Origin: Alphaproteobacteria bacterium
GTDB lineage: Bacteria; Pseudomonadota; Alphaproteobacteria; GCA-2746255
Direction of reading: 5' to 3'
NCBI GenBank assembly: GCA_021776275.1
Contig: JAJFGH010000097.1
Span: 1-38,365 of the forward strand
DNA: 38,365 nucleotides
Positions 15,888-35,923 of the stretch are shown here, one piece after another; position 1 is the stretch's first letter; each line of letters starts with the position of its first letter. The notes beneath the pieces are model-generated. The model was not told where the DNA came from. It was given only the letters and a program-made list of their open reading frames with translations, and made no database searches. Position numbers and translations under genes: made by a program.

Positions 15888-15909
15888 CCCCCCTGAACCG
15901 TTCAAGCCG

Positions 15910-17984: not shown

Positions 17985-19787
17985 ATGAACCGACAGCAGC
18001 GCCGACAGCAGGCCCGCCAATCGCGGCAAAAGGAAAGCCAGCCCCAGGGCGGCGACGGCTTTTCGGACCAGCGCCTGGACGACGCGCTTCGCCTGCATCA
18101 GCGCGGCGAGTTGGAGCGGGCGGAGGCGATTTACCGAAACGTGCTGCGCCAGCAGCCGGATCATCCGGACGCGCTGCATCTTCTTGGCGTTCTCCGTCAC
18201 CAGCGCGGCGCCAGCGAGGAAGCCCTTGGCCATATCGAACGCTCCCTTGCGGCGAAACCGAAATCGCCGGACGCCACCTACAACCTTGCCGACGTCCTGC
18301 TTTCCCTGGGAAGAACGGCGGAAGCCATTCAGCATTTTCAGAGCGCCCTTTCGCTGCGCGCCGATTTTCCCGAAGCGCAGATCAGCCTGGGCGTTGCCTA
18401 CCGCGCCGCTGGCGACATGGAAAAGGCTCTCGACCAGCTTCGCGAAGCGGCGGCAAAACATCCGGATTATGCCGAAGCCCATTACAACCTTGGCGATACG
18501 CTGCGCATTCAGAACGATTTTACCGGTGCCAAGGCCGCCTTTGAAAAGGCACTGGAAGTTCGCGCCGATTTTTCCGAGGCCGAAAACAACCTCGCCACCA
18601 TCTTGCGAAACGAAGGCGACATCGAAGGCGCCGCCCGGCATATCGAAAACGCGCTTCGCATCAACCCCGACTTCGCCGAGGCCCACAACAACCTTGGCAA
18701 TATCCGAAAGTCGGAAGGCGCCATCGAGGACGCAATCCCGCATTTTGAACAAGCGGTTCGTTTGCGCCCCGATTTTACCGAAGCCCATTACAATCTGGGC
18801 AATGCCTATCTGGCGACGGGCCGGGTCGACGCGTCCGCCGATGCCTTCAAGAAGGCGCTTGTTCTAAACCCGGATCTTGAAAACGCGCGCGGCGGCCTTT
18901 CCGAGGCCCAGCAACGCCAGGTGCCGCGCTGGCATTTTGCCATGATGAACGACCGCGCCCGCAACGAGGCGTACGATCAGGCCATTCGGAAAAGCGTGAC
19001 GGAAAATGCCACCGTTCTAGACATCGGCGCGGGCGGCGGCCTGCTTTCGATGATGGCCGCGCGCGCCGGCGCAAAGCATGTCTATGGGTGCGAAACCGTA
19101 ACGCCGATCGCAGACATGGCCACCCGCATCGCCGCCGAAAACGGCCTGGCCGAGCGCATCACCATCCTGCCAAAACATTCCTACAGCCTGAAAATGGGCG
19201 AGGATTTGCCCGAGCCCGCCGATCTGCTGGTGACGGAATTGTTAAACGCCGGTTTTCTTGGCGAGGGAATCTTGCAGGTGATCCAGCATGCGCGTGCGAA
19301 TTTGTTGAAGCCCGACGCAAAGATCGTCCCGAGGGGCGGCACGGTTTATGCCATGTTGATCGAAAGCGCAGAATTGGTTGAAGAAGACCGGGTCAACGAC
19401 GCCGCCGGATTCAACGTGCGCCCCTTCAACGAATTCGCAAGCGCCGAATATCTGACAAAGCGCCTGAACGCCTACCCCCACAAAATTCTTTCCGACTCGG
19501 CGGAAGTCTTTTCCTTCGACTTTCTGGACGCCCGGCCAATGCCCGAAACGAAGGAAATTTTGGTCCCGGTCACCGCCGACGGGCTTTGCCACGGGGTGTT
19601 GTTATGGTTCCGGCTGAACCTGACGGACGAAATTTCCCTGGAAACGAAGCCGCGCGCCGAAGACACCCATTGGCACCAGGCAATTTATCTCGAAGAAACG
19701 CCAAGGCCGTTGCACAAAGGCGAGAACGCCCGCCTTTCGGCGAGCCATGACTGCCGTTACATCTCGTTGAAACTGGCATCTGACTAA
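17985..19787 (+). CDS. TPR-repeat protein fused to a PRMT-like protein arginine methyltransferase domain
   Basis: About eight TPR units, then VLDIGAGGGLLSMMAARAGAKHVYGCE, double-E loop TELLNAGFLGEGI, THW loop DTHWHQAIYLEE. Confidence 0.85.
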   Translation: MNRQQRRQQARQSRQKESQPQGGDGFSDQRLDDALRLHQRGELERAEAIYRNVLRQQPDHPDALHLLGVLRHQRGASEEALGHIERSLAAKPKSPDATYNLADVLLSLGRTAEAIQHFQSALSLRADFPEAQISLGVAYRAAGDMEKALDQLREAAAKHPDYAEAHYNLGDTLRIQNDFTGAKAAFEKALEVRADFSEAENNLATILRNEGDIEGAARHIENALRINPDFAEAHNNLGNIRKSEGAIEDAIPHFEQAVRLRPDFTEAHYNLGNAYLATGRVDASADAFKKALVLNPDLENARGGLSEAQQRQVPRWHFAMMNDRARNEAYDQAIRKSVTENATVLDIGAGGGLLSMMAARAGAKHVYGCETVTPIADMATRIAAENGLAERITILPKHSYSLKMGEDLPEPADLLVTELLNAGFLGEGILQVIQHARANLLKPDAKIVPRGGTVYAMLIESAELVEEDRVNDAAGFNVRPFNEFASAEYLTKRLNAYPHKILSDSAEVFSFDFLDARPMPETKEILVPVTADGLCHGVLLWFRLNLTDEISLETKPRAEDTHWHQAIYLEETPRPLHKGENARLSASHDCRYISLKLASD

Positions 19788-19805: not shown

Positions 19806-20636
19806 TCAGACAATGTCGCGCAAGCGCGCAAGCGCGTCTTCGCAAGTGGCATAGCGAAGGCGATAGCACGTGCCCGCTTTTGCGATCTGCAAAAGCCGGC
19901 TTACCTTTGCTTCCGCATCGATGCTTTGGGTAAAATTTCGCCGCATCAAATCGCGCAGCACGTCGCTTTTACCGATCGGCTCAAGGGAAGCAGCGCCGCG
20001 CTCGACGCGCTCGGGCAGCACGATTGCCGCAATCGGCGCCGTCGCGCCAAAACGGGCCATCTCGCCGGGCCGGAGCCCGACAAATTTTCCGTAACCATTG
20101 CCAAGCACGTCGCGATCATCGAGAAAGGCGCGAAAGCCCGCCGTCACATTCGCGGGCAATGGCAGGCGGAGTCTGGGCGCCACGCCCAAGGAAACACCAA
20201 GCCCCGCATCGTCTTGAATGGCCAGCACATCGTCGGTGAAAAGAAGCGCGCCCGCCGCCGCGCCATGAACCGCCAGGGTGCTTTTTCCCGCCTTGCCGCT
20301 GGCCGGAAAGACGAAAAGGCCGTCTCCCATTTTCAGCGCCGCCGCATGAATACAGAGCAGCTCGGGATTGGCGGCAATGAAGGCGGTGTAAAGCTCGGCG
20401 AAAAAACCCGCGATGGCCTCGTAGCGATCCACATAATCATGGGACGTAAAATGATGGACACGGGTTTCGACGCGGTACCCTGTCTGGGTCCGCGCAAGGG
20501 TCAGGACCGAATCCGGCGCTGCCGTCTCCAAAATTGCGTGGGGCCAGGTTGAAATTGGCGGGCACAGAAAGGGAAGAAGCGGATCGCACCCTAAAATGGA
20601 AACGGGCGCGGGCACCCCTTCAAAGCGAAACAGCAT
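19806..20636 (-). CDS. HprK-related kinase
   Basis: LLCIHAAALKMGDGLFVFPASGKAGKSTLAVHGAAAGALLFTDDVLAIQDD: HprK-like P-loop and following D-D segment; different architecture from the hprK at 6789. Confidence 0.75.
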   Translation of the reverse strand: MLFRFEGVPAPVSILGCDPLLPFLCPPISTWPHAILETAAPDSVLTLARTQTGYRVETRVHHFTSHDYVDRYEAIAGFFAELYTAFIAANPELLCIHAAALKMGDGLFVFPASGKAGKSTLAVHGAAAGALLFTDDVLAIQDDAGLGVSLGVAPRLRLPLPANVTAGFRAFLDDRDVLGNGYGKFVGLRPGEMARFGATAPIAAIVLPERVERGAASLEPIGKSDVLRDLMRRNFTQSIDAEAKVSRLLQIAKAGTCYRLRYATCEDALARLRDIV

Positions 20637-20677: not shown

Positions 20678-20959
20678 TCAGCTTGGCCGCGATGGCCTGC
20701 TTGGGCCGGAGGGCCCGCTTGGGCCACTCGGTCCACTCGGGCCGGAGGGCCCGCTTGGACGGGAGGGCCGCGTCGGCCCGCTTGGGCAGGGGCCGCCTTT
20801 GCCTTTGCCCTTGCCGCAGGGAGAAGGCTTGATCTTCGCCATGGCGCTGCCATCAAGATGCAGCAGCACCGGCGCCGTATATGCGATGGCCGCGCCAATT
20901 CCAAGACGGGTCAGCGCCTTGCGGCGGTTTACGATTTTTTCTTTCGAGATTTGGCCCAT
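20678..20959 (-). CDS. Small Tat-signal-like protein with (P-S/T-G/R) tripeptide repeat tail
   Basis: MGQISKEKIVNRRKALTRLGIGAAIAYTAPVLLHLDGSAMAKIKPSPCGKGKGKGGPCPSGPTRPSRPSGPSGPSGPSGPSGPSGPSRPSRPS*; alternative TTG start at 20965. Confidence 0.7.
   Translation of the reverse strand: MGQISKEKIVNRRKALTRLGIGAAIAYTAPVLLHLDGSAMAKIKPSPCGKGKGKGGPCPSGPTRPSRPSGPSGPSGPSGPSGPSGPSRPSRPS
20681..20785 (-). repeat. Protein-level tripeptide repeat PSG/PTR/PSR (12 units, last truncated)
   Basis: cca agc ggg / ccc tcc ggc / ccg agt gga / ccg agt ggc ... with varied synonymous codons. Confidence 0.85.
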
Positions 20960-21120
20960 CTTCAATCTATCCCTTGTCCGAACCCGGCCTGCTTACGAAA
21001 GGTGGCGCCGGCCCGGCCTTTTTTCAAGGCCCCTAAAGCATAGGCCGTTTCGGGCATGAAGAAAAGTTTTGCCGCGAAATTTGGATTTTCCAACAGGAAT
21101 ATCAAATGGTTAAGTAGATA

Positions 21121-22245
21121 TTACGGCGCCGCCTTCACCAGCGCGTAGACCAGCTCGATGACCGGCGCGCCATATTCGCGCCGCAGTACCTCCTCCCCCG
21201 CCGCCGCGATCGAAAGACGATCCTGGATCACGCCGGGCAGGTAATCCGGATGGTGCGCGTACCGGCCGGACGCCTGCAAGGCAAAGCCGGGCGCCTGCCC
21301 CTTTTCAAGGCTTAGCAGAAAAAATCCGCCCGGCCGCAGCGCATCGGTCGCCGCCGCCATCACGGGCGCGAGGTCGCCTATATAGACGAGGGAATCGCAA
21401 GCGATCATAAGGTCGAAGCATCCGGCCGGCATGCCGGCCAGAAAGGCCGTCGCCTCGGCGAGGTGCAGTTGCTCATAAACGGCGAGCGCTTTTGCCTGCG
21501 CAAGCATTTTCGGCGAAAGGTCTACGCCCGCCAGGCTTTTGGCAAGCCCTCGAAATTTTTTTCCGGCCAGGCCCGTGCCGCAACCGATATCGAGAATGTC
21601 AAAACGGGTTTTCCGCTTGCCGATCGCACGCTTGGCATAATCGAAGAGAACGTCCGGCCCGCAATAATCCAGGTCTTTGCAAAGATGCGTGTCAAAGGTG
21701 CCGGCATAATTGTCGAAATAATGCTTCACATAGGCTTCCGGTGCGCGCGACGGGGCGTCGGCGCCGCCAAGGGCGGCGATCATGTAGCGCGCATCGCCGT
21801 CCCGCGGATCAAGCTCCAGACAGCGGCGGTAACAGCGCAGCACATCTTCCGGACGCTTTAGGTAACTGTAGCTTTCGCCAAGCCGCCAATGGGCCTTCCG
21901 GTAATCCGGCTGCAACGCGATCGCGCGCTCAAAGAAAGAGGCCGCGCGCCCATGCTCGCCCTCCGACGCCAGCGCCTTTCCAATCGCATAGGCGTTCTCC
22001 GCCTCCAGCGCCATCCGTTGACAATGGGTGGCGGACGCCCCTTCCCCGTCGCCTTCCGCCTCCAACAATGCTTCCAACCCCTCCAACGCGGCGAGGTGCT
22101 GGGGCATGGCCTGTAAAAGTTCGCGATAAAGGGCAATTGCCCGCTTCGGCCGGCCAGCTTTTCGGTGCTGTTCGGCAAGATGGTAGAGGCGCGTTGCCGC
22201 CGCGGTCGCCCCGCCCGCTTTTCCCGAGGTAGCCCTTGACGCCAT
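21121..22245 (-). CDS. TPR-repeat class I SAM-dependent methyltransferase
   Basis: TPR-like N-terminus; FDILDIGCGTGLAGKKFRGLAKSLAGVDLSPKML; likely start MASRATSG at 22245. Confidence 0.85.
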   Translation of the reverse strand: MASRATSGKAGGATAAATRLYHLAEQHRKAGRPKRAIALYRELLQAMPQHLAALEGLEALLEAEGDGEGASATHCQRMALEAENAYAIGKALASEGEHGRAASFFERAIALQPDYRKAHWRLGESYSYLKRPEDVLRCYRRCLELDPRDGDARYMIAALGGADAPSRAPEAYVKHYFDNYAGTFDTHLCKDLDYCGPDVLFDYAKRAIGKRKTRFDILDIGCGTGLAGKKFRGLAKSLAGVDLSPKMLAQAKALAVYEQLHLAEATAFLAGMPAGCFDLMIACDSLVYIGDLAPVMAAATDALRPGGFFLLSLEKGQAPGFALQASGRYAHHPDYLPGVIQDRLSIAAAGEEVLRREYGAPVIELVYALVKAAP

Positions 22246-22264
22246 CGGCGCCCCCTCGCTTTTC

Positions 22265-23740
22265 CTATTTCGCGATCCGGGTGATGGTGGCGCTGGTGCT
22301 CTGACCGGGAACAATTTCGGCCAACAGAATTTGGCCGCCATAGCTTTTCACAAAATCCCCGCCGACCACTTCGTCCTCCCGGTAATCCGCCCCCTTTACC
22401 AGCACGTCCGGGCGAAGCGCCTTCAAAAGGCGCACGGGCGTGTCCTCCGTAAAGATGACGACGAGATCCACGTCGGCGATCGAGGCCAGCACCGTCGCCC
22501 GGGCCATTTCCGCCTGCACCGGCCGTTCGGGCCCTTTCAGGCGCGCAACCGAGGCGTCGCTGTTCAGGCCGATGATCAGCCGGTCGCACGCCGCTTTTGC
22601 CTGACGCAGCAGCGCGACGTGGCCCGGATGCAGCAAATCGAAACAGCCATTCGTAAAGCCGATGCGAAAGCCCTGCCGCCGCCAGCGCGCGACGGCGTCG
22701 TTCGCCTGTTCCAGTGAAACGCAGGCATCGGCGCTTTCAAGCAAATCGCGCTCGTGCAGCCCCGCGACAAGATCGTCCGGATGGACGACGGCGGTGCCCA
22801 CTTTTCCGACAACGATGCCGGCGGCAACGTTCGCAAGATAGGCCGCGTCTGAAATGGAGGCGCCGCCAGCAAGGGCGGTGGCAAGGGTGGCCAGCACCGT
22901 GTCGCCGGCTCCGGAAACGTCGAAGACTTCGCGCGCCCGCGCCGACAGATGCAGCGCCTCTTTTCCTTTCGTCACCAGCGTCATGCCAGCAGCGCTTCGC
23001 GTAACCAGAATGGCGTTCACGCCGACGGCTTTCAGTAATTTTTCCGCCGCCGCGACGATCTCTTCATCCGTTGCAACCGGCAACAAGGTCGCCTCGTGCA
23101 ATTCGCGCAAATTTGGCGTCAGCAGCGTTGCCCCACGGTAGCGGTCGTAGTCGAAACCCTTCGGATCGATGACAACCGGCACCTTCGCTTTTTTGGCCAG
23201 GTCAAGGATACGCTTTGCCATGTCTCCGACCAGAAGCCCTTTGCCGTAATCGGAAAGCAGCAAAACATCCGCCGCCTGAAGCGCCTCTTCGATACCACCG
23301 AGAAGTTTTCCGCGCGCCAAATCGCCAAGGGAAACCAACGTCTCGTGATCGGCCCGCAGAAGCTGCTGGCTTGCCGCGACAAAACGGTTCTTGATCGTCG
23401 TCCGGCGGCCTTCCTCGATGACGACGCCGTCATTGGCGGAACCCGATGCGTGGACAAGTTCGCGCAGCTCGTTTCCGGCCGCGTCGTTGCCGACGACCGA
23501 AAAGAAACGCACCTCTGCCCCATATGCCAAGAGATTGCGGAGCACGTTCCCGGCACCGCCAAGAACCGTCGTTTCGCGGCACACATGCAGCACCGGGATG
23601 GGCGCTTCCGGCGAGACGCGCTCGACATCGCCATAAACGAAGCGATCAAGCATGACGTCGCCAACGCAGACCACGCGGGCACCGCGAAAAGATTCCACTT
23701 CGGCTGCGAAGGCAGGCGCGTCACCCGTTTCCTTGCTCAT
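22265..23740 (-). CDS. hldE: Bifunctional heptose kinase / ADP-heptose synthase
   Basis: VVCVGDVMLDRFVYGDVERVSPEAPIPVL, VSGAGDTVLATLA; FTNGCFDLLHPGHVALLRQAK nucleotidylyltransferase domain; Met at 23740. Confidence 0.96.
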   Translation of the reverse strand: MSKETGDAPAFAAEVESFRGARVVCVGDVMLDRFVYGDVERVSPEAPIPVLHVCRETTVLGGAGNVLRNLLAYGAEVRFFSVVGNDAAGNELRELVHASGSANDGVVIEEGRRTTIKNRFVAASQQLLRADHETLVSLGDLARGKLLGGIEEALQAADVLLLSDYGKGLLVGDMAKRILDLAKKAKVPVVIDPKGFDYDRYRGATLLTPNLRELHEATLLPVATDEEIVAAAEKLLKAVGVNAILVTRSAAGMTLVTKGKEALHLSARAREVFDVSGAGDTVLATLATALAGGASISDAAYLANVAAGIVVGKVGTAVVHPDDLVAGLHERDLLESADACVSLEQANDAVARWRRQGFRIGFTNGCFDLLHPGHVALLRQAKAACDRLIIGLNSDASVARLKGPERPVQAEMARATVLASIADVDLVVIFTEDTPVRLLKALRPDVLVKGADYREDEVVGGDFVKSYGGQILLAEIVPGQSTSATITRIAK

Positions 23741-23744
23741 CTTC

Positions 23745-24338
23745 CTACTCCTCGACGAGGCCGAGTTCCTGCTCCAACGCTGCGCACAGCATATGGCCAA
23801 GCATAATATGCATTTCCTGAATGCGCGACGTACGGTCGCTTGGGACAAGCAACAAGGGATCGGCCAGCCCCTTCAATTTGCCCCCGCCCTTGCCGCCGAA
23901 CGCCGCCGCGACAAGGCCCATCTCCCTGGCTTGCTCCAGGCCGAGCAGGACGTTTTTGCTTTGGCCGGAGGTGCTGATCCCGATAGCGACGTCGCCCGGC
24001 TTGCCGAGCGCCTCCACCTGGCGCGCAAAAAGCGCATCGAAGCCAAGGTCGTTGCCGATCGCCGTCAGCGCCGAGCTGTCCGTCGTCAGCGCGATCGCGG
24101 CAATGGCCTTGCGATTTTTCGAAAAGCGGACGACCAATTCCGTCGCCAGATGCTGGGCATCAGAGGCGCTGCCGCCATTGCCGAAGAAGAGAAGCTTGCC
24201 ACCTTCGCGGATCGCTTGCGCCGAGCGTTCGAGCAGGCTGCAAAAGGCCGCAGAAAGGGCTTGTTCCGTCGCCGCGGCGGTCGCGGCATGCTCGGCGAAT
24301 TCCGCCGCATAGAAGGCGTTTAAATCGAGTTTTATCAT
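23745..24338 (-). CDS. gmhA: Phosphoheptose isomerase (SIS domain)
   Basis: GGKLLFFGNGGSASDAQHLATELVVRF, GISTSGQSKNVL, DRTSRIQEMHIMLGHMLC; Met at 24338. Confidence 0.95.
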   Translation of the reverse strand: MIKLDLNAFYAAEFAEHAATAAATEQALSAAFCSLLERSAQAIREGGKLLFFGNGGSASDAQHLATELVVRFSKNRKAIAAIALTTDSSALTAIGNDLGFDALFARQVEALGKPGDVAIGISTSGQSKNVLLGLEQAREMGLVAAAFGGKGGGKLKGLADPLLLVPSDRTSRIQEMHIMLGHMLCAALEQELGLVEE

Positions 24339-25099
24339 GAGCTGAAACGTCCACTCCCCGGTCCCGTTTTGGAAAAAAGAGTGTACCAGATAAAGAGGCT
24401 GTTCGTGACCAGATAGCGCTTCCAAAGGCGCCCCGGCTCCGCGCACAACCGAAACAGCCATTCCAGGCCGGCCGCCTGCATCCAGTGCGGGGCGCGGCGG
24501 ACCGTGCCGGCGAGAAAATCAAAGGCGGCGCCGACGCCCACCAGGACGCCCGTGAGATGGGGCGCGTAGGCCGCCATCCAATATTCCTGCTTCGGACAGC
24601 CAAGGCCGACAAAGACCAGACCGGCGCCCGTGGCGTTGATGCGGGCAACCGTCTCGGCGTCTACCGCCGGCTCAAGGGGCAGCGCCGGCGGCGCCTCGAT
24701 ACCGGCAATCCGGAGCGTGGGAAAATGCATTTCCAACACCTGGCGCAACGCCGCCGCCGTCGCGGCATTGCCGCCGAAAAAATAAACCGGCACCGCCGCC
24801 GCCGCGGCTTTTGCCAACAGGCGCGCCGTCAAATCGGGTCCGGCGACGCGGCCCGCCTCGCCATAGCCTTGGCGCCGCAAGGCCCAGACCAGGGGCATGC
24901 CGTCGCTGGTTACCCAAAACGCGCCCTCCATGGCGGCCCGCAGGCGGCTGTCCTTTCTTGCCGTCGTCACCATGTGCACATTGGCGACGCAGACATAGCC
25001 GCCTTTCCCCGCCTTGGCCGCCTCCAGAATCGTTTCCGTGGCACCGGCAAGGTTCCCCACCGTCACCGGCGCCCCGACGACGTTTCCCCTAGGCTTCAA
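24335..25099 (-). CDS. WecG/TagA/CpsF-family glycosyltransferase
   Basis: VTSDGMPLVWALRRQGYGEAGRVAGPDL, FFGGNAATAAALRQVL, VFVGLGCPKQEYWM; probable TTG start at 25099 overlapping the galE stop. Confidence 0.9.
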   Translation of the reverse strand: MKPRGNVVGAPVTVGNLAGATETILEAAKAGKGGYVCVANVHMVTTARKDSRLRAAMEGAFWVTSDGMPLVWALRRQGYGEAGRVAGPDLTARLLAKAAAAAVPVYFFGGNAATAAALRQVLEMHFPTLRIAGIEAPPALPLEPAVDAETVARINATGAGLVFVGLGCPKQEYWMAAYAPHLTGVLVGVGAAFDFLAGTVRRAPHWMQAAGLEWLFRLCAEPGRLWKRYLVTNSLFIWYTLFSKTGPGSGRFSS

Positions 25100-26078
25100 C
25101 GCCGCCCTCCCGGTATTTCCGCTCCCAGTTGAACGCCGTCTCGACGATGAAACGCAAATTGTCGTGTTTTGGCTGCCAGCCAAGGGCCGCCCGGATGCGC
25201 GACGCGTCGGCCACCAGCGCCGGCGGGTCGCCCGCCCGCCTTGGCCCTTCCGCAACGGTGAAATCGATACCGGATACCTGCTTCACCATCGCGACGACCT
25301 CGCGCACGCTGGCCCCATGGCCATAGCCGCAATTGAGAACGAGGCCCTCGCCGCCCGCCGCCAAATGGTCGAGGGCGGCGCGATGGGCCGCCGCCAGATC
25401 CGACACATGAATGTAATCGCGCACACAGGTGCCATCCGGCGTCGCATGGTCGGTGCCGAAAAGTTCAATTTTCGGGCGAACGCCGAGGGCCGCCTGCAAG
25501 GCGAGCGGAACAAGATGGGATTCCGGATCGTGGGCTTCGCCAATCCTGGCCTCCGGGTCCGCCCCGGCGGCATTGAAATAGCGCAGGATGACGCAACGCA
25601 AATCAGATGCGCGGGCCGCGTCCTGCAAAATCCGTTCGCTCATCATCTTGGAAGCGCCGTAAGGATTGATGGGAAGCAGGGCTGCATCTTCGGAAACTTT
25701 TTCCCCCTCCGGCAGGCCATAGACCGCCGCCGTCGAAGAGAAGACAAAATGTTTGACGCCGAAACGGACGCAGCGCGCAACCAGGGCCAGCGTGTTTTGC
25801 GTATTGTTCCGGTAATATTTCAACGGATCGGTAATGGATTCGGCAACTTCGATATGGGCAGCGAAATGCACGACCCCATCGAACGCGTTTTCCTGAAAAA
25901 GCGCGTCCATCGCCGCGTCGTCCGCCAGGTCGGCGACCACCAACCTGCCGGCAAGCACCGCCCAAGGGTGGCCCGCCGAAAGATTGTCGACGACAACCAG
26001 ATCGTGGCCGGCCGCGGCCAGCTCCAAAACCGTATGGCTGCCGATATAGCCCGCGCCGCCCGTTACCAATAGCCGCAT
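25089..26078 (-). CDS. galE: UDP-glucose 4-epimerase
   Basis: MRLLVTGGAGYIGSHTVLEL, FSSTAAVYG, NPYGASKMMSE, RYFNAAGADP. Confidence 0.95.
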   Translation of the reverse strand: MRLLVTGGAGYIGSHTVLELAAAGHDLVVVDNLSAGHPWAVLAGRLVVADLADDAAMDALFQENAFDGVVHFAAHIEVAESITDPLKYYRNNTQNTLALVARCVRFGVKHFVFSSTAAVYGLPEGEKVSEDAALLPINPYGASKMMSERILQDAARASDLRCVILRYFNAAGADPEARIGEAHDPESHLVPLALQAALGVRPKIELFGTDHATPDGTCVRDYIHVSDLAAAHRAALDHLAAGGEGLVLNCGYGHGASVREVVAMVKQVSGIDFTVAEGPRRAGDPPALVADASRIRAALGWQPKHDNLRFIVETAFNWERKYREGGVEA

Positions 26079-26081
26079 GCT

Positions 26082-26131
26082 GCTCCCCCTACACGCGCGC
26101 CGCGCGGCTCCCCTTACACGCGCGCCGCGCG
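26082..26131. repeat. Two-copy 25-bp tandem repeat at the galE/glycosyltransferase junction
   Basis: gctccccctacacgcgcgccgcgcg / gctccccttacacgcgcgccgcgcg, one mismatch. Confidence 0.9.
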
Positions 26132-27279
26132 GCCTCGTAAATTTCCATCAGGCGCACATAGTTTACGTCCGCCGTGTAGTTTTTCGCATACGCCTCTCGG
26201 GCATGGGCGCCCATGGCCGCCATGCGTTGCGGGTTGGCCGCCGCGAAGCGCACTTTCTCGGCCAGATCCGACGCGTCCCCCGGTGTGAAATGCAGGCCCG
26301 TTTTTCCGTCTTCCACGATTTCCGCCATTGCCCCCAATTTCGATGCGATCACCGGCAGCCCGGCCCGAAAGGCTTCCAGCAACACCATTGGGAAACCTTC
26401 GTACCATTCCGAGGGCAGCACAAGAAAGGTGGCACGGCCCATTTCGCCGGCGATCGCCGCCCCAGGCAGCGCGCCGGCGGCATCGATCCAATCGCCCTTG
26501 CGGCGGCGAACCGTTGCCAAAAGCGGCCCTTCGCCGACCAGCCGCAGCGGCACGTCCAAGCTCTCCCAGGCGTCGAGCAGGGTGCCAAGCCCCTTCTCCG
26601 GGCTTAGCCGCCCGACGAAAAGGCCGCCGCGACGACCCGCGGCATGCTCGACCGCCGCGCGATCATCGGGAAGAAAGTTTGGCTTTACCTGAATGTGCGC
26701 CGCCGGCAAACCGCCCTCGACGAATTTTTGCTTGGCAAATTGCGTCAGCGCAATGAAACGGTCTGGCCGCGTTGCCCAGGTGTCCCGTTTCCGGTGATAG
26801 GAAACCATGCGCGCGACGGCAAAAGACCCCGGTTGCGAGCCGCGATAGCAGCCATGCAGAACGGCCCGGTAGGGCGAACGGTGAACGCATTCCTCGCAAA
26901 TTTGGCCGTCGCGATAAAGCGTCGCCGCCGGACAGATGAGCCGGTAATTGTGCAGCGTCATCACCGAAGCAATGCGCGCGTCCCGGCAGGCATCGAAAAT
27001 GGACGGCGTCAGAAGCGGAAAGAAATTATGCACATGCACAAGGTCCGGCGCATGTTCCGCCAGCGCCTTCGCCATCTGCCCCCGGGCCCTCGCCGAATAG
27101 GGCGCGGCCAGCGCCGTTTGCAAGGCCCCAAGCGGGCCCTGAATGGCGGCGTTGGCAATCGTAAATTCCCGAACCTCCTGCCCGTTGCCTTCCAGCAACG
27201 CCCGCTCATTGGCGAACACGGCGTCTTCGCCGCCGGCTTGCCGGTAAAAATTATGAACGAGCAGAACGCGCATGGGCAT
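26089..27279 (-). CDS. GT4-family glycosyltransferase
   Basis: MPMRVLLVHNFYRQAGGEDAVFANE...LVHVHNFFPLL...GLFVGRLSPEKGLGTLLDAW...PSEWYEGFPMVLLEAFRAGLPVIASK. Confidence 0.95.
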   Translation of the reverse strand: MPMRVLLVHNFYRQAGGEDAVFANERALLEGNGQEVREFTIANAAIQGPLGALQTALAAPYSARARGQMAKALAEHAPDLVHVHNFFPLLTPSIFDACRDARIASVMTLHNYRLICPAATLYRDGQICEECVHRSPYRAVLHGCYRGSQPGSFAVARMVSYHRKRDTWATRPDRFIALTQFAKQKFVEGGLPAAHIQVKPNFLPDDRAAVEHAAGRRGGLFVGRLSPEKGLGTLLDAWESLDVPLRLVGEGPLLATVRRRKGDWIDAAGALPGAAIAGEMGRATFLVLPSEWYEGFPMVLLEAFRAGLPVIASKLGAMAEIVEDGKTGLHFTPGDASDLAEKVRFAAANPQRMAAMGAHAREAYAKNYTADVNYVRLMEIYEAARRACKGSRAARV

Positions 27280-27437
27280 TGCCCCGAAAGAGGTCGCGAA
27301 GCGGCCGTCTGGCCACGAAGGGGGCCTTCAACTTCGCCCGAAAATGCAAGGAATAATGCAAAACGATGCCCCTGAAGACGGGAATTATCCCCCCCAATGA
27401 AGCTCCTGCCTAGCCCCGATATGGCCTAAATCCACCG

Positions 27438-28172
27438 TTGCGCACCGGCGGCGCTAGCGTCTATCGTCGCCGGGTGGATAAGGCAAAATTCCTACCAAAA
27501 GCCAGGGTCGTCGATCGCTGCCGCACCGTCGCCGAATTCGCACGCGGGAAGGACGTTCTCCATATCGGCATGGGCGGCTACCTCGAAAACGACAGCGGGA
27601 CACAATCCTATCTGGCATCCGATCTTTCCAAATCGATGCATGGCTACCTTTCCCGCACGGCTTCTCGCTTGACCGGCCTGGACCCCAACCCTCAGGCGGT
27701 CGAGACCATGCGCCAGATCATCCCAGGCGAATACGTCGTAGGCGACATCACCGACCCGCAGGCGACAGCGCCGCTCAAACATCGCTTCGATGCCGTCCTC
27801 TTGCTCGATGTCATCGAACATCTCGACAATTTCCGGTCCACCCTGCAGAACATCCGTCCGCTACTTAATGAGGATGGGAGGCTGGTTATCACAACTGCCA
27901 ATGCCTATTGCTTCGAGTCCATGCTGAAAATGTTGTTGCGCTACGAAGCCGTCCACGAAGAGCATACTTGCTATTTCAGCTACCTCACGATGAAACGTTT
28001 GCTTGCCATGAACGGGTTTGAGATCGACACGTTTTGCTTCTACAGCGAGGGCGAACGCCGCCCGGTCGGAGCCTTTGGATGGCTCGGCTATCTTTCCCTT
28101 AAGCTGGTCACGCTTTTTTTCCCGCAATATGCCGAGGGGATATTCGTGGTGGCGAAACCAAGTTCCGCCTAA
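27438..28172 (+). CDS. Class I SAM-dependent methyltransferase
   Basis: DVLHIGMGGYLEND..., FDAVLLLDVIEHLDNFRSTLQNIRPLLNEDGRLVITTAN; TTG start at 27438 or GTG near 27474. Confidence 0.85.
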   Translation: MRTGGASVYRRRVDKAKFLPKARVVDRCRTVAEFARGKDVLHIGMGGYLENDSGTQSYLASDLSKSMHGYLSRTASRLTGLDPNPQAVETMRQIIPGEYVVGDITDPQATAPLKHRFDAVLLLDVIEHLDNFRSTLQNIRPLLNEDGRLVITTANAYCFESMLKMLLRYEAVHEEHTCYFSYLTMKRLLAMNGFEIDTFCFYSEGERRPVGAFGWLGYLSLKLVTLFFPQYAEGIFVVAKPSSA

Positions 28173-28240
28173 CGGGCGGCAAGGAACGCCGCTATTTGTT
28201 ATAGGCTTAGCGCCGGGCCCTTTGGACTCAAGGACATTCC

Positions 28241-29410
28241 TTGATGCGAATCATACAAGTCATCACCGCGTTTTGGCTGGGGGGCGCCGAGGAAGTCGCC
28301 ATCAACCTAGCCCTTGGCTTAAGACAGCGCGGCCATGACTCGTGCGTGGTGGCGGTGAACACGCCAAAGGCCGCCGATAGGGTGGGCGAAGACCAAAAAA
28401 AACGCCTTTCCGAGGGGGGCGTAGAATTCCTGGAAATTGGCGGGCCGCATTTTCGTCTAAACAGTTTGATCGCCCCCTTCCGGCTGGCGTCTTTCTGCCG
28501 CGCGTGGAAACCGGATGTCGTACATTCCCACACGGATATACCGGATTTCACCCTCTCTCTGGCGCGGCGCATCACCAACATTGCCCTCGCGAGAACCATT
28601 CACAACACCACGCTGTGGCCGACACACCATCTAATGGGATGGGTCAGCGAGCAGCGCTTTCGCGACGATTTGATTGTCCACATCTCCGATGGCGCAAAGG
28701 CTGCCTACAGAAAGCTCCGGCAGAAATATGCGCTCCCGGAATCCCGGACACAGGTGACCATCCCAAATGGCGTTCGCAAAGCATCCGAGAAGGAACGCTT
28801 CGACCGCACCGCACTGGTTCGCGAATGTGGCGCAAACGCCGAGAAGATTCTTTTTTGTTTCGCTGGGCGGTTTACGTCTCAAAAGGGTTTCGACATCCTT
28901 CTTGACGCATTTGAACGCTTGCCGGAAGGGGTGTTGAACAAGCTACAGCTGCATGCTTTTGGCGAGGGTGAAGAAAAGGGCCGATATTTTAATCGGGTGG
29001 CCGAACAGCAATTGCCCATTTTTTTTCACTCGCCGATTCCCGAAATCCGCCGCCTTTTTCCTGCCTTCGACGCCGTTGTTATGCCTTCTCGTTTTGAAGG
29101 GCTTCCTCTTGTCGCCCTCGAGAGTCTCGCCGCCGGTGTCCCCGTCATTGGCACATCCGCTCCGGGCCTGGGAGAAACGCTCCCGCCTGAATGGCCGCTG
29201 AAAGTGCCGGTTGAGAATGCTACCGCGCTTGGAAAGCTGATCGCGGATTTCGTGGGCGGCGCTTTCAATACGGAACAGCTTCGCGAGAGGGCGGCGCGCT
29301 GGGGGGATCGTTTTACAGTAGACAAGATGGTCGAAGCCTATGACACGGCGTACCGAGATTATCTTTCCCTCAAAAAAGGGCCTCACGAAGAGAAAGGGAT
29401 CGCCCACTAA
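28241..29410 (+). CDS. GT4-family glycosyltransferase
   Basis: MRIIQVITAFWLGGAEEVAINLALGL...FAGRFTSQKGFDILLDAFERL...MPSRFEGLPLVALESLAAGVPVIGT. Confidence 0.95.
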   Translation: MMRIIQVITAFWLGGAEEVAINLALGLRQRGHDSCVVAVNTPKAADRVGEDQKKRLSEGGVEFLEIGGPHFRLNSLIAPFRLASFCRAWKPDVVHSHTDIPDFTLSLARRITNIALARTIHNTTLWPTHHLMGWVSEQRFRDDLIVHISDGAKAAYRKLRQKYALPESRTQVTIPNGVRKASEKERFDRTALVRECGANAEKILFCFAGRFTSQKGFDILLDAFERLPEGVLNKLQLHAFGEGEEKGRYFNRVAEQQLPIFFHSPIPEIRRLFPAFDAVVMPSRFEGLPLVALESLAAGVPVIGTSAPGLGETLPPEWPLKVPVENATALGKLIADFVGGAFNTEQLRERAARWGDRFTVDKMVEAYDTAYRDYLSLKKGPHEEKGIAH

Positions 29411-29590
29411 CACTTGTTCGCTCGCGAACACAGCATCCTTGCCCCCACCTGTTGGCAAAAATCATGGAGAAGAAGAACGCGCATGCGCCTGCCCCCGGAG
29501 GAGGCTGCGAAGCGGCCGGCGGCGGCGAAACGGCACCGATAGCCTTGCCCGAAGGTTAAGCGAATAATGGACGATAATCCCCCAAAAGAA
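29411..29590 (-). pseudogene. 5' fragment plus upstream region of a GT4 glycosyltransferase, paralogous to the 26089-27279 gene
   Basis: MRVLLLHDFCQQVG / (other frame) GGKDAVFASEQV vs MRVLLVHNFYRQAGGEDAVFANERA; upstream DNA also similar. Confidence 0.8.
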
Positions 29591-30829
29591 GTAATAGAGA
29601 ATCGTGTTAAAGGGCTTCTCGAAGGCATCTTCGCCGATCGCAAAAATCCAGATCAGAAGGAAAAATACGAAAAGGACCATGAGCCGCTCTTGCCCGACAC
29701 GGTATTTTGCCCGACGGCACAATTGCATGGCACGGCTCCACAACAGTACCAGCGCAATATGCATCCAAATAAAGGCAAAGAGACCGACCACGCCGAGGCG
29801 CGCGAAAATCGAAATATAAGAATTATGCGGTTCGCGAACGACCGAACCTGACAGGTTGACGAAATCGACCAGCGGTTCGCCATAGCCGAGACCAAAGAGC
29901 AAATTGTCCAAGCTGGACGTCACCTGTCTCCAGATATCAATCCACCATCCGAGACGAAGGCCCACGCCTCCGGCCGCCCCCGCCAATTCGCCGCTGCCCC
30001 CGCCTCCTACGATTGTCCCAAAATGGGCGATCATGAATTCGAGCGAGATGGTGCCTCCGATACGGCCGGTGATCTGAATGCCCAGCGCGGAAACAACGAG
30101 AAGGGCGCACATCCCAAAAATCAGAGAGGACGACATTTTCACGAAGGAGCTGCGGTACTGCCAGGCAAACAACAGCAACATCGCGATCACCTGAAGGTAA
30201 ACCGTCCGTGCCTGGAAGAAGGCGACGACATAAGCCAGCAAAATCGGCGCCAACAGCATCGGCCCGAAAAGGATCGTTTTTGGCCGAACGATCATGAGAT
30301 ACGCCGCCGCCATCAACATAATGACGGACGTGTTTATGTACTGGAAGAAAATCGTGACCTTGTTCCCGGCGGCGGAAATAATCGAGGGCGAAAGGCTTTG
30401 GAAAAAATCGCCGATGGGAAAAGTCAGGCCGTAAACAACGCCTATGGCAAGCAACTTCGGAAGCCACCGAAAAAAACGCTCGATATTTGCTTCCTTAGTC
30501 GCAAAAACAAAGCCGACCCAAAGGAAAAGGGATTCAAGGATATGGGTCGCATCGCGAAACGCCCACATTCCATGTTGTGGAATATTGATGATAAGCTGTA
30601 CGAATCCGACCCCCCACCAAAGAAGAAAAGGCAAAAGAAAGATCGCGTGTGAAAAGCGCGGTAAAAACCGGACGTCCGTAAGCCACAGAAGGTAGCACAA
30701 CAACAGCAACTCGCCGAAGGGGGCGCCGATGCCTGGCGGCACGCGCAGGATCATGAAGCCATAGTTTAGGATCAGATAACAGGCGAGGATGAAAAGAGTC
30801 AGCCGGTCTCGAACGTTCGTCAGAGTCAA
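29462..30829 (-). CDS. O-antigen ligase/polymerase-like multispanning membrane protein
   Basis: Multiple hydrophobic helices; LDNLLFGLGYGEPLVDFVNLSGSVVREPHNSYISIFARLGVVGLFAF. Confidence 0.88.
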   Translation of the reverse strand: MTLTNVRDRLTLFILACYLILNYGFMILRVPPGIGAPFGELLLLCYLLWLTDVRFLPRFSHAIFLLPFLLWWGVGFVQLIINIPQHGMWAFRDATHILESLFLWVGFVFATKEANIERFFRWLPKLLAIGVVYGLTFPIGDFFQSLSPSIISAAGNKVTIFFQYINTSVIMLMAAAYLMIVRPKTILFGPMLLAPILLAYVVAFFQARTVYLQVIAMLLLFAWQYRSSFVKMSSSLIFGMCALLVVSALGIQITGRIGGTISLEFMIAHFGTIVGGGGSGELAGAAGGVGLRLGWWIDIWRQVTSSLDNLLFGLGYGEPLVDFVNLSGSVVREPHNSYISIFARLGVVGLFAFIWMHIALVLLWSRAMQLCRRAKYRVGQERLMVLFVFFLLIWIFAIGEDAFEKPFNTILYYFFWGIIVHYSLNLRARLSVPFRRRRPLRSLLRGQAHARSSSP

Positions 30830-30921
30830 AACGATCTCTTTCCAAAAAGCGTCCGGAAGCTTTTCATAAACCTGAAGAGCCCATATTCCCTACCCGGACA
30901 CCTCAAGAAACCTCCACAACA

Positions 30922-31653
30922 CTACTTCACACATTCAACGTATAAAGATTCTGGCTTATATTCATTGCCTTCTTCATCCACCTCAAGGCCGAACGATTTC
31001 CAATCCGGAATATCGCTTTCGTTGAAATGCCGGACGGTGATGTCGCGAAACCCTGCTTGCTTCAGGGCAAGCCTTAGATTGCATTCATCATACATCCATT
31101 GATGCGTTTCTCCACGCTTACGCGCGTCTCCCAATATCCTGTTTTCCAGGCACCGCCGCACGGGCGGCTGCTGTTGCGTTCCAAAGGATTCCCTTCGAAC
31201 GCACTGCTCGATCATATCCGCGATGCAAGCATCGTGCTTGTCAAGCGCGGCCGCATCTTCCCTGCAACGCTCCAGGCTGGACAAATAATTTCGTGCAAGG
31301 CTTTCCAGATCGGGCACGCATATTCGTTGAATGCCGCCCGGCTTCAATGCACGATAAATTTCCCCTAAATAGGCGGGAACATCCCCGCGATCGATATGTT
31401 CAAGAATATGCGAATGATAAACGGCGTCGACACTTTCATCCGGAAACGGGATGCCTTTTCTCAGATCCCAAGCCAGTACATTGCTGGAAAGAGAAAGCAA
31501 ACGACGGCGCCGTTCCTTATTTAGAAAGGGCACAACCAATAAACGAAGAAACCGGTTTCTCTTTATGCGAAGGTAGATTGACCAATCGATGTTGATGCAT
31601 CGAGCCGAGGTCTTCGTGCCACATCCAAGATTTAGTACACGCATAGAATACAC
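30922..31653 (-). CDS. SAM-dependent methyltransferase-like protein
   Basis: MRVLNLGCGTKTSARCINIDWS, SVDAVYHSHILEHIDRGDVPAYLGEIYRALKPGGIQRICVPDLE. Confidence 0.88.
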   Translation of the reverse strand: MYSMRVLNLGCGTKTSARCINIDWSIYLRIKRNRFLRLLVVPFLNKERRRRLLSLSSNVLAWDLRKGIPFPDESVDAVYHSHILEHIDRGDVPAYLGEIYRALKPGGIQRICVPDLESLARNYLSSLERCREDAAALDKHDACIADMIEQCVRRESFGTQQQPPVRRCLENRILGDARKRGETHQWMYDECNLRLALKQAGFRDITVRHFNESDIPDWKSFGLEVDEEGNEYKPESLYVECVK

Positions 31654-31826
31654 GATCTCCGGCGGATAATTCCCCTTATTGAACCACCGAATTTACAATT
31701 CGCAAGGAAAAATACGGCGCGCCTAAATTTGGATGGGGATACCCTGTCATTGTGTCCCCCCCTCAAATTGGATACGGTTGCACCCAATCCAGAGGTCGTC
31801 TGGACGAACCTTGGATAGGCGTAACT

Positions 31827-32315
31827 GTGGCACTCAACAAACAGCCGGCCGCCCAGCATAAAACGGTCCTTACCTACGGGACATACGATCTGTTTCATGT
31901 TGGGCACCTTCGATTGTTTAAGCGGTTGAAAGCGCTTGGTGATAAATTGATCGTCGGCGTTTCCACAGACGAATTCAATTCCATAAAAGGGAAGCGAACG
32001 ATTATACCCTTTTCCCAAAGGGCCGAAATTATCGAGTCCATAGTTTGCGTCGACCTTGTCATTCCGGAAAAGAGCTGGTCGCAAAAAGTCGACGACATCA
32101 AAACCCATGGCGTCGATATTTTTGCCATGGGCGATGACTGGCACGGGAAATTTGATGATCTAAAGGCATATTGCGAGGTCCACTATCTTCCGAGAACTGC
32201 CTGCATATCCTCGACCGAAATAAAGCACGCGCTGGAAACCATCTATGAATTGAGCCCCAAAGAACTGGCTATTCAATATGAAGTGCTGCACCAGCTCCTT
32301 GCCGATTTAAAATAG
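31827..32315 (+). CDS. Glycerol-3-phosphate cytidylyltransferase-like (TagD family)
   Basis: LTYGTYDLFHVGHLRLFKRLKALGDKLIVGVSTDEFN...AMGDDWHGKFDDL...LPRTACISSTEIK; likely GTG start at 31827. Confidence 0.88.
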   Translation: MALNKQPAAQHKTVLTYGTYDLFHVGHLRLFKRLKALGDKLIVGVSTDEFNSIKGKRTIIPFSQRAEIIESIVCVDLVIPEKSWSQKVDDIKTHGVDIFAMGDDWHGKFDDLKAYCEVHYLPRTACISSTEIKHALETIYELSPKELAIQYEVLHQLLADLK

Positions 32316-32325
32316 CGGTCTTGCG

Positions 32326-33501
32326 ATGCTCAATATTGGTACCTCATGCCCAAGAGAAATCTTTCGGGCACTGAATTGGCTGGTGCCCAAGCGGGCAAAT
32401 CAGATTTGCATTCATTCCTTCCCCGATTATGAGGATATGACAAGAGGCCTGTTAGACGGGCTTTCAAAAAGCGCTATTGAATTTCAGATCGTCATCCTGA
32501 CGGACAAGCGGGGACAAAAACCTAAATGGATCAAGAAAAACCACACCCACCTGCGACAATATAAAAAACGTTCCGTATGCGGCATTTGGGCGTATTGGCG
32601 ATCGAAATACGTTTTCTTTACCCATGTGTGTTTTTCCTCGATTCGGCCGGTTCAAACGCAAATCACCGTAAACGTCTGGCACGGCATGCCGATAAAAACA
32701 CTCGGCCGCTATCTTGAAAGAAACAAAGCCGTGCCTTTCTCGACCTATATAATTTCAACAGCGCCCTTCTTTTCAAAAATCCTTTCCACCGCCTTCGCCA
32801 TGCCAATCGAGAGGGTTCTGGAGGTTGGGCTGCCCCGAAACGACCTTCTGTTGAAAGCGCAAAACAGGGCTTTAAAAAAGCAGCTCTGCGGCGATCAAAA
32901 ATTGATCGTATGGTTGCCGACCTGGCGACACACGATCCTGGGAGAGGGAAGACTGGATGGCAGGCAAGCCGAGAATATCTTTAATCTAGCGGATTTGGAT
33001 ATCGGTGCGTTGGACGGCGCCTTCAAAAAGCTAGGGCTTAGCGTTCTTATCAAGCCGCACCCGATGGCCACCAGGCTGGAGGCAGATTTTGATCCGGAAA
33101 GCCTTTCAAACATTCGCCTGATCGACGAAGAATGGCTGAAGCAATCTGGAACGACGTTGTACGAACTGCTTTCCATCTCGGACATGCTGATTACGGACAT
33201 CTCGTCCGTTTTGGTTGATTACCTTCTCTTGGATAGGCCAATCCTGTGCCATTTTCCCGACATGGAAGCTTACAAAAAGAACCGCGGACTGATCTGGGAT
33301 TTTAACCCAACGGAATATGGCATTCCCCTCGTTGCCCATCAAAAAGAACTGATTGAAGCAGTAAAAACGAGCATGGAGCGTGCCGGGGAGAACAATCTAT
33401 ACCCCGCGCTTCGCAAGCTCATGCACGCCGATCATAAAAATAGTTCTCGCAAATTGATGGATGCGCTAGGCGTGGAAAACCAGACCGCTCCCACGCCTTA
33501 A
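32326..33501 (+). CDS. CDP-glycerol:polyglycerophosphate glycerophosphotransferase family (TagB/TagF-like)
   Basis: NVWHGMPIKTLG, WLPTWRHTILGEGRL, LIKPHPMA, LYELLSISDMLITDISSVLVDYLLLDRPIL. Confidence 0.9.
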   Translation: MLNIGTSCPREIFRALNWLVPKRANQICIHSFPDYEDMTRGLLDGLSKSAIEFQIVILTDKRGQKPKWIKKNHTHLRQYKKRSVCGIWAYWRSKYVFFTHVCFSSIRPVQTQITVNVWHGMPIKTLGRYLERNKAVPFSTYIISTAPFFSKILSTAFAMPIERVLEVGLPRNDLLLKAQNRALKKQLCGDQKLIVWLPTWRHTILGEGRLDGRQAENIFNLADLDIGALDGAFKKLGLSVLIKPHPMATRLEADFDPESLSNIRLIDEEWLKQSGTTLYELLSISDMLITDISSVLVDYLLLDRPILCHFPDMEAYKKNRGLIWDFNPTEYGIPLVAHQKELIEAVKTSMERAGENNLYPALRKLMHADHKNSSRKLMDALGVENQTAPTP

Positions 33502-33516
33502 AAATCGACGCTTAAT

Positions 33517-34782
33517 CTATGTTCGACTGCCTGCCAGTTCCGCTCTCACCGCCCTCAGCAGGACAACCAAAAGAATGAGCGCTACGCCAAGGTTTCCTAT
33601 CATTGCCCCCGTCAACTCGAAGTTTTTCAACAATGGGTACACGGAAAGCAGGGTAAACAGCGTGGCGTAAGCATCGCTTTGAAAGATGGGCCGTGTCCGC
33701 TCCAACGCACGCAACCCGGCGCGAAGCGGAAGCGCTAGCCCCACAAGCACATAGACGCCCGCATACCAGTAAAGCAGGTGCCCGTAGGCCGCGAAAGATT
33801 CTCCGAAAACAAGCTGTAGCCAGAAGGAAGGCGCCGCAGCGGCAACGATGCCAAGCACCGCTGCCGTCAGGCCCATCGCCCAGGCAACCCGCCGCAGATA
33901 GGCGGCAAGCGCACGCTTCCCCCCGCCTACCAGACTCGCCGCGGCATGCAACGGCACAACGTTTTCAAGCGCCTGAAAGAAGATACGGTTGACCCCCATC
34001 AGCGTTTGCGCGGCACGAAGCGCGCCGACGGCGGCCACGCCAAGCATGGCGCCCGCTGCGATAAAGATAAAGTTAGCCGAGGCCCATTGCAGCAGGGCCG
34101 AAGCGCCCATCCATTTCGCGAAATACCAGTGCCGCCTGCAAACGCCGGTAAAGGTGCTCACCCGCCACGAAAGACGTTCCAGAAAAAGCGTTCCCGTTAG
34201 AACCGCGGCGGCAGAGGCGCCACCAATGAACCAAAGAACGTCCGCGCTATCGAAACGAAAGCGCGGAAGCAACAGAAACAACAAAAGAAGAAGGCCAAGA
34301 TAGCCGATGGCGTCGCCCGCAAAGGCAATGGCGGGACGTTTGCGCGTGAAAAAATAACGCCGAAAAAAATCGCGCAGTTGAAAAAGAACCGCCGTTACCG
34401 CCAAAGGAACCGCCAGAACGCGCAAATCCCACTGGGGCCGGATCTGGGCTGCAAGATGCACGCCCGCAAGAATAAGAAGAAAGGTAAGCGTTACGAAGAT
34501 CAGCAGTTGCAGGAAAAGCGCGCCAAAATAAGCGGGCGCGTCTTCCGGCCGCTGCTTCGGGCCAATGCTCATCATGGGTGAGATAACCACCGCCATCTGC
34601 AGGCTTGTCGTAAAAAGGACAACCAGCCAGGCGAGGGTGAAACGTCCAAACTCTTCGATGCCCAAATGGCGCGCAATCAAAATGGTCGTGAGAAAATTCG
34701 CGGCACTCACCATTCCCTGGTCCAAAAGCGCCCAGTTCACGTGGTGGTGGCGCTTGGCCATTGCGAAGATTCGGTCGAACAT
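33517..34782 (-). CDS. Polysaccharide biosynthesis flippase-like protein (Wzx/MATE-like)
   Basis: About 12 hydrophobic helices; HVNWALLDQGMVSAANFLTTILIARHLGIEEFGRFTLAWLVV. Confidence 0.85.
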   Translation of the reverse strand: MFDRIFAMAKRHHHVNWALLDQGMVSAANFLTTILIARHLGIEEFGRFTLAWLVVLFTTSLQMAVVISPMMSIGPKQRPEDAPAYFGALFLQLLIFVTLTFLLILAGVHLAAQIRPQWDLRVLAVPLAVTAVLFQLRDFFRRYFFTRKRPAIAFAGDAIGYLGLLLLLFLLLPRFRFDSADVLWFIGGASAAAVLTGTLFLERLSWRVSTFTGVCRRHWYFAKWMGASALLQWASANFIFIAAGAMLGVAAVGALRAAQTLMGVNRIFFQALENVVPLHAAASLVGGGKRALAAYLRRVAWAMGLTAAVLGIVAAAAPSFWLQLVFGESFAAYGHLLYWYAGVYVLVGLALPLRAGLRALERTRPIFQSDAYATLFTLLSVYPLLKNFELTGAMIGNLGVALILLVVLLRAVRAELAGSRT

Positions 34783-34846
34783 TTTCCGCTTTCCGGACCG
34801 GATGGCTTAATCACCCAGTCTAGCATCGTAGGCAGCAGGCGTCCCC

Positions 34847-35914
34847 TTATCCGGGGGGCAAACCGCCATAGGGACGAACCAGACCACGCAGCCGGCGCCA
34901 ATTGCGATAGAGGCCAACGCGCAAATCCGTCGCCAGAAGAAGCTCGCGGCGCAACGTGCGCAAATGCCCGGGCCCGGTCGGGAAAAGGGTTTCGTAATCG
35001 CGGACCAGGCGCGCAAATTCGCACGCCGGAAGCCCGCGAAAAGGCCGCAGCAGGCCCACAGGCGCGGGCCCGAGCCTGCCGCCAAGCCGTTCCAGCAATT
35101 GGAGAAAGCTTCTCGCCGCCCGGCAAAGCCGCCCCTGGGTCACCAGCGCCTCGAGCCGCTCCCAATCCAGCTCCTCCGTGCGTTCCAACATGCGAATCGC
35201 ATCGACGCTCTTGCGCACGCTTGCCGGCCCGAAGGCGCCCTTCGCCGCGTTCGTCAAACTAAGAAAAAAGTGATGCTCCGGAGAAGGCACGCGCAGGCGC
35301 AAGCCGTCGATTTCCAGCCGGCGCGATTCGGAAAAAACGGCCTCCGTCGAAAGTGAAAGCGTGGCCGGGTAGGCATCGGGCGCGATGTGCAAATCGAGAT
35401 TGGCGCTGGCATCTTCGGAAACGAAGGGCAGAAAGCTGACATCGGAAATAAACCCCCAGGGCGAACGCGCCTCGCCGCGAAAGCGAAAACCGTGGCCGGA
35501 GAGAAAATGAATAAGCGCGTCCAGATCCTTCGCACGAAGCAGCAGATCCAGATCGCCAATCGTGCGCGCGTCCGGATCGTCATAAAGGCTGTGCGCGCTG
35601 GCAAATCCCTTTATGTAAACGACATCGAACCCCGCCTCGCCGATCTTGCGCACCCAGTGCAATTGGCTATGCCGCAGAAACCGGTTGTACAGAAGCCCCT
35701 TATCGGCCAGCTCCGGATCGATCCATTCGCGCTTCAGCTTGGCCGCGGCCGGACGCAACAATTCGCGCGCAAGGGCTGGCGAAAGAAGGTCCGCAAACCG
35801 CCGCAGCATGGCGGGCGTCGCTGCCGAAACGTGCCGCTCCGCCGCCTCCGGGCATGTGACAAGCGTCCAGAACTTGGCTGCCACGTTGCTTGTACTTTCT
35901 TGCGATTGCGACAA
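34847..35914 (-). CDS. Nucleotidyltransferase family protein (NTP_transf_5-like)
   Basis: FDVVYIKGFASAHSLYDDPDARTIGDLDLLLRAKDLDALIHFLSGHGFR...NLDLH. Confidence 0.85.
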   Translation of the reverse strand: MSQSQESTSNVAAKFWTLVTCPEAAERHVSAATPAMLRRFADLLSPALARELLRPAAAKLKREWIDPELADKGLLYNRFLRHSQLHWVRKIGEAGFDVVYIKGFASAHSLYDDPDARTIGDLDLLLRAKDLDALIHFLSGHGFRFRGEARSPWGFISDVSFLPFVSEDASANLDLHIAPDAYPATLSLSTEAVFSESRRLEIDGLRLRVPSPEHHFFLSLTNAAKGAFGPASVRKSVDAIRMLERTEELDWERLEALVTQGRLCRAARSFLQLLERLGGRLGPAPVGLLRPFRGLPACEFARLVRDYETLFPTGPGHLRTLRRELLLATDLRVGLYRNWRRLRGLVRPYGGLPPG

Positions 35915-35923
35915 AGAAACCCG

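Follow-up and report, generated by a model that had tools for sequence, protein, structure and literature searches.

In some lasso peptide clusters, a kinase (poly)phosphorylates a serine, PsmN is needed for the presence of a hexose on the phosphoserine, and a His-Lys-Asp-Asp set of residues is reported as essential in the Ser-phosphorylating kinases (PMC9266682). By a literature search that had most subscription journals outside its scope, a non-lasso HprK-related kinase/PqqD system was found to be undescribed, and HprK-related kinase/PqqD/nucleotidyltransferase cassettes outside lasso clusters were found without a described substrate. In eukaryotes, proteophosphoglycans are secreted Ser/Pro-rich repeat proteins with a phosphate-linked glycan. 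In the 38,365-nucleotide stretch of alphaproteobacterial DNA analyzed here (the window), a small leader-bearing Pro-Ser repeat protein is encoded next to an HprK-like kinase; proteins with this leader supply a candidate substrate for the non-lasso kinase/PqqD/nucleotidyltransferase cassettes.

A small Pro-Ser repeat protein with a conserved twin-Arg leader

The gene lies on the minus strand at 20678..20959 and encodes 93 amino acids when read from ATG 20959, from which residues are numbered here; TTG 20965, with AAGGG 5 nt ahead of it, is the other candidate start. No NCBIfam, Pfam or PADLOC family matched the protein, and with no PADLOC match a defence-system identity was set aside. The leader (residues 1-41; 20837..20959, minus strand; NRRKALTRLGIGAAIAYTAPVLLHLDGSAMA) includes a twin-Arg motif (RRKAL, residues 12-16), an invariant Tyr and Pro and an AxA end (SAMA, residues 38-41) at which cleavage probably occurs, with a hydrophobic stretch between the two motifs. 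Beyond it is a Cys-to-Cys loop, C(GK)3GGPC, at residues 48-58 (20786..20818, minus strand), which is set in the context PSPC-GKGKGKGGP-C; PCGKGKGKGGPC corresponds to residues 47-58. The tail (residues 59-93; 20681..20785, minus strand), which is the proposed region of modification, consists of 11 P-S/T-G/R triplets and a final Pro-Ser, making twelve Pro-Ser/Thr units. By the codon listing, Pro and Ser are fixed, and the third position is Gly in 7 of 11 triplets and Arg in 4 of 11. Reading frame, strand, RRKAL, hydrophobic stretch, SAMA, loop and unit number were all as described in the first-pass annotation of this DNA.

Orthologues of 82, 70 and 71% identity were found in three other species of the genus, with the frame and motifs retained. 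Over the 40 codons of leader and loop, dN/dS for these species was 0.09/0.27, 0.14/0.83 and 0.09/1.16 (a ratio of about 0.07-0.34), and leader and loop are under purifying selection. The conserved frame and the excess of dS over dN rule out a DNA repeat or non-coding artefact and bear out the initial call of a genuine coding gene. The call of an export-type twin-Arg leader also held across families: among 56-58 family members, the Arg pair was conserved in 56/56, a Gly in 57/58, the Tyr in 57/57 and the Pro in 57/57. Tat substrates follow the motif rule RR-x-[FGAVML]-[LITMVF], to which RRKAL conforms, as do 53 of 54 family members recovered with a search motif that already demanded L or M at +3.

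When relatives were compared for N-terminus and repeat number, the same leader was found ahead of tails that varied in length and repeat count. Within the genus, the residue between the Pro-Ser units is Arg, Lys, Glu or Gly, while Pro-Ser stays fixed, and the description of the tail as 'collagen-like' was therefore abandoned. One species (G001) has a short KPS/RPS tail. Another (G002) carries three tandem copies of the gene (L017 8826-9936), two of which have internal leader deletions that place leader and tail in different frames; the tail of the last copy is nearly devoid of Ser. A C-terminal Ser is present in the window protein and in that of another genome (G003), and C-terminal residues vary across the family. 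Adjacent tail units in the window differ in their synonymous codons (CCA AGC GGG / CCC TCC GGC / CCG AGT GGA), and the repeat is held at the protein level, as had been proposed. The accompanying claim that such upkeep takes the place of DNA slippage did not stand, as multi-unit DNA repeats were detected: their period was 18 in the window, and the sister species had periods of 18, 27 (with 100% matches) and 36. Thus, the tail is shaped by both DNA duplication and protein-level selection.

The adjacent HprK-like kinase

An HprK-like kinase of 276 amino acids, the presumed partner enzyme, is encoded on the same strand 41 bp downstream of the small protein (19806..20636, minus strand) and adjoins it in 4/4 species of the genus. 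This gene and the polysaccharide cluster described below, which give the small protein its meaning, were missed by the first-pass annotation. The best family for the kinase was TIGR04352 (HprK-related kinase A) at 44.8 bits, under the curated cut-off of 200, and HprK_rel_B scored 17.8 bits against a curated cut-off of 200. A profile made from the kinase found HPr kinase chains in the PDB, and Foldseek matches to its AlphaFold model (pLDDT 91.7) were PEP carboxykinases and HPr kinases. As modeled, the kinase has an HprK/PEPCK fold with a P-loop kinase core; residues H97, K118, D135 and D136 are invariant.

The kinase tree was found to split in two. The window kinase belongs to a supported clade in which the gene adjoins a leader gene in 24/24 cases; in the other clade, most kinases are encoded elsewhere than at the leader gene. 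In six genomes that had a leader gene and a second-clade kinase on one contig, the leader gene was about 37-43 kb from the kinase, beside hldE and often a TPR-methyltransferase gene, with NTP_transf_5 between leader gene and kinase. Second-clade kinases at L104, L105, L117 and L118 were encoded directly after a histidine kinase/response regulator pair. The window genus, a single lineage, is mixed: its leader, Cys pair and hldE/TPR context are those of the second mode, and its kinase and Ser-rich tail are those of the first. Based on this one lineage, the type of tail seems to go with the kinase.

Co-occurrence of leader and kinase across genomes

A leader profile and a kinase profile were each run on the same 387 alphaproteobacterial genomes with analyst-set thresholds of E < 1e-6 and < 1e-30, respectively. 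By this approach, 35 genomes were found to be strongly positive for the leader and 36 for the kinase, with 33 common to both (Fisher 6e-42). Kinship was handled by counting families: 16/16 leader families fell inside the 18 kinase families, and 13/13 did so after removal of the three families that had seeded the leader profile (the window genus, G019 and G031). Such leader proteins occur almost only in genomes with this type of kinase, often beside its gene. Searches with the kinase alone recovered leader proteins beside the kinase in Rhodobacteraceae, Halomonas and a Shinella plasmid. On the plasmid of Shinella sp. WSC3-e, a kinase-PqqD fusion gene is immediately preceded by that of the hypothetical protein WP_272808546.1, in which this leader is followed by a Ser/Gly/Arg tail. 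When the Rhodobacteraceae small protein was used as the query against plasmids, no match was obtained.

The leader was also observed on larger proteins. On Shinella and Paracoccus plasmids, S8 subtilases (L136 4034-5371, L137 2734-5472) carry the same leader followed by a Ser/Gly-rich linker, and they are encoded next to the kinase-PqqD gene and an ECF sigma gene. In Rhodobacteraceae, a second, larger leader protein is encoded right after the kinase (L088 3624-4172, L089 6167-6754, L091 2153-2686); these proteins have a conserved C-terminal domain, which had no Pfam match in the one member tested, and a PepSY identity for the C-terminal part of the L089 protein was dropped for want of Pfam support. 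In G019 (L020 1206-2762), the gene next to that of a leader protein encodes a TPR/2OG-Fe(II) oxygenase, and an HprK-like kinase is encoded nearby; this arrangement suggests further modifying enzymes.

Composition of the tails

Tails beyond the leader are hypervariable, and some reach over 100 amino acids. Pro-[Ser/Thr] was enriched family-wide, with 144 occurrences (a count inflated by tandem repeats) compared to 59 expected from composition, and the reverse order was depleted. At least one Pro-[Ser/Thr] was present in 46 of 54 tails versus 28 expected, a measure less affected by tandem repeats, and 66 occurrences versus 28 expected were counted with one row per lineage. The median Ser fraction was 0.177 for tails with a kinase directly downstream compared to 0.065 for those without (p 5e-5, which is only a guide as the rows are related). 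In about half of the family, the tail is poor in Ser and contains Cys, and the kinase is encoded at a distance of tens of kb; at least two Cys were found in 22 of the 26 tails without a kinase directly downstream.

PqqD, NTP_transf_5 and the surface-polysaccharide locus

Of the 33 genomes positive for both leader and kinase, 28 were counted from coordinates to have PqqD (a RiPP recognition element) either next to the kinase or fused with it, and NTP_transf_5 is present in 30 of the 35 leader genomes compared to 77 of 387 overall. In the window genus, neither the PqqD nor the NTP_transf_5 gene is adjacent to the kinase, but both map to the same surface-polysaccharide locus or its vicinity. In three species, 26-28 kb separate PqqD from the small protein; in the fragmented genome to which the window belongs, PqqD is on another contig, next to an HlyB/HlyD-type exporter. 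A PqqD of the genus is encoded at L128 6872-7267. The nucleotidyltransferase-like NTP_transf_5 protein, the presumed second modifying enzyme, is encoded in the window at 34847..35914 on the minus strand (PF14907, E 1.7e-24), and 4/4 species of the genus have one per genome in the same cluster.

Upstream of the small protein is a TPR-methyltransferase identified by Pfam (21121..22341, minus strand), which also neighbors leader genes of several other families. HldE-like (PfkB + cytidylyltransferase, 22265-23848) and GmhA-like (SIS, 23745-24461) ADP-heptose genes, likewise assigned by Pfam (22265..24461, minus strand), are recurrent neighbors of leader genes. The rest of the surface-polysaccharide cluster (24335..38307; Pfam) includes a WecG-type transferase, an epimerase, glycosyltransferases, Wzy_C, a CDP-glycerol glycerophosphotransferase, a metallophosphoesterase and Bac_transf. 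With the CDP-glycerol glycerophosphotransferase-like gene at 32326-33501, a teichoic-acid-like polymer is possible. Convergent with the kinase is a TPR and arginine-methyltransferase-like protein (17985..19787, plus strand; Pfam PRMT_C), syntenic in 4/4 species, which has a candidate role in that the Arg residues of the tail are its possible target. A PQQ-dependent methanol/ethanol-family dehydrogenase and cytochrome c (15216-17724) are also syntenic in 4/4 species.

Proposed role and alternative explanations

On balance, the small protein is probably a RiPP-like precursor or substrate whose tail would be phosphorylated on Ser/Thr by the adjacent HprK-like kinase before export, with KPSPCGKGKGKGGPCPSGPTRPSRPS as a candidate kinase substrate peptide. 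This relation between kinase and substrate is drawn from genomics: leader proteins are almost confined to kinase genomes and are often encoded beside the kinase gene, and the tail is thus the probable target. The proposal is built on a real gene, a conserved leader, the kinase fold and active-site residues, the genomic coupling and the Pro-Ser enrichment, each of which is established here. The leader would be recognized in the cytosol by the PqqD-type protein encoded elsewhere in the same genome region, and the kinase would modify the Pro-Ser tail in the same compartment. The NTP_transf_5 enzyme may then place a sugar or nucleotide on the phosphate, although the glycan link is putative. Export of the finished protein would most simply be by Tat or, alternatively, by the HlyB/HlyD-type exporter beside PqqD. 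TatC is present in the genus, and since Tat exports finished proteins, cytosolic phosphorylation before export would fit this route. Once exported, the Ser-repeat peptide, phosphorylated and possibly bearing a glycan, may act on the cell surface or within the polysaccharide layer. Counting against this proposal are the roughly half of the family with Ser-poor tails and a distant kinase, the near lack of Ser in the last G002 tail and, in the window genus, PqqD and NTP_transf_5 genes that do not adjoin the kinase.

A plainer account is that the small protein is an ordinary exported protein, disordered and serving in matrix or adhesion within the polysaccharide layer, that the kinase has a different target, be it a sugar, another protein or a lipid-linked intermediate, and that the two co-occur by way of the same clusters. 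Leader gene and kinase are indeed both found in polysaccharide loci, many leader proteins are Ser-poor, and in some genomes about 40 kb separate the two genes. By contrast, the two genes are directly adjacent in many families, the stop of one often lying a few bases from the start of the next, Ser-richness goes with an adjacent kinase, and the pair is retained on Shinella and Paracoccus plasmids, in Shinella among neighbors other than a polysaccharide cluster; we therefore regard this account as rather unlikely. The subtilases with leader and Ser/Gly-rich linker, together with the larger leader proteins that follow the kinase in Rhodobacteraceae, would also agree with a leader that is a cargo tag for a dedicated export route, the low-complexity tails being linkers or remnants. 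A linker, however, leaves the Pro-[Ser/Thr] enrichment and the near-obligate kinase unexplained, making this an improbable reading.

A lasso-peptide-like antimicrobial precursor with a cyclized core would account for the terminal Ser of the window protein, and kinase, PqqD and nucleotidyltransferase do occur in lasso clusters (PMC9266682). Leader peptidase B2 (PF13471), however, had no match in the 4 genus genomes or in 30 of the 35 leader genomes (4 of the 5 matches being over the cut-off), and an Asn-synthetase-like cyclase was not among the annotated neighbors within the window. The missing peptidase largely refutes a lasso identity and, with an export-type leader, tails of over 100 amino acids and a C-terminal Ser that is not general, leaves this reading very improbable. 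A bacterial collagen-like triple-helix protein is scarcely credible: seven Gly-Pro-Ser units are in register, but Gly gives way to Arg at 4 of 11 positions in the window protein and at about half of them in that of the sister species, the tail has very little length, and orthologues lose the Gly register. The interrupted Gly-X-Y pattern excludes a collagen helix.

Beyond the phosphorylation of the tail by its neighboring kinase, it is a tentative and rather doubtful extension that these proteins are new RiPP-like surface phosphopeptides of Alphaproteobacteria and some Halomonas, tethered through phospho-Ser to cell-surface polysaccharide by NTP_transf_5 as a bacterial counterpart of proteophosphoglycans. 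If the kinase does act on the tail, bacteria would have a widespread, overlooked route for adding phosphate, and perhaps glycans, to small secreted repeat proteins in the polysaccharide layer; short, low-complexity genes of this kind easily escape annotation.

Comparison with known systems

As for the lasso tailoring kinases PadeK, ThcoK, SyanK and PsmK and for PsmN, an HprK-like kinase with His-Lys-Asp-Asp is encoded together with PqqD-type and nucleotidyltransferase-like proteins, and Ser of a ribosomal precursor, the acceptor in those systems, is the proposed acceptor here (PMC9266682). The present system differs in its location in a surface-polysaccharide locus, in the lack of a leader peptidase, and in having a twin-Arg export leader and repeat tail instead of a threaded core. 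Fold and active-site residues are common to the window kinase, HprK/P and the NCBIfam HprK-related kinases A and B, but the window kinase is under the curated cut-offs and HPr is not an evident partner. The likeness to eukaryotic proteophosphoglycans, which is one without homology, is in the secreted Ser/Pro-rich repeats, the phosphate-linked glycan being a proposal here. Similar to RiPP precursors that are served by RRE (PqqD) proteins, a conserved leader precedes a hypervariable core and PqqD is found beside the modifying enzyme; modification is presumed for the proteins described here, and their leader instead resembles a Tat signal with an additional invariant Tyr and Pro. With Tat-exported proteins, the window protein has in common the RR-x-A-L motif, hydrophobic stretch and AxA end that predict its export, but conservation of its family's leader far exceeds that of usual signal peptides.
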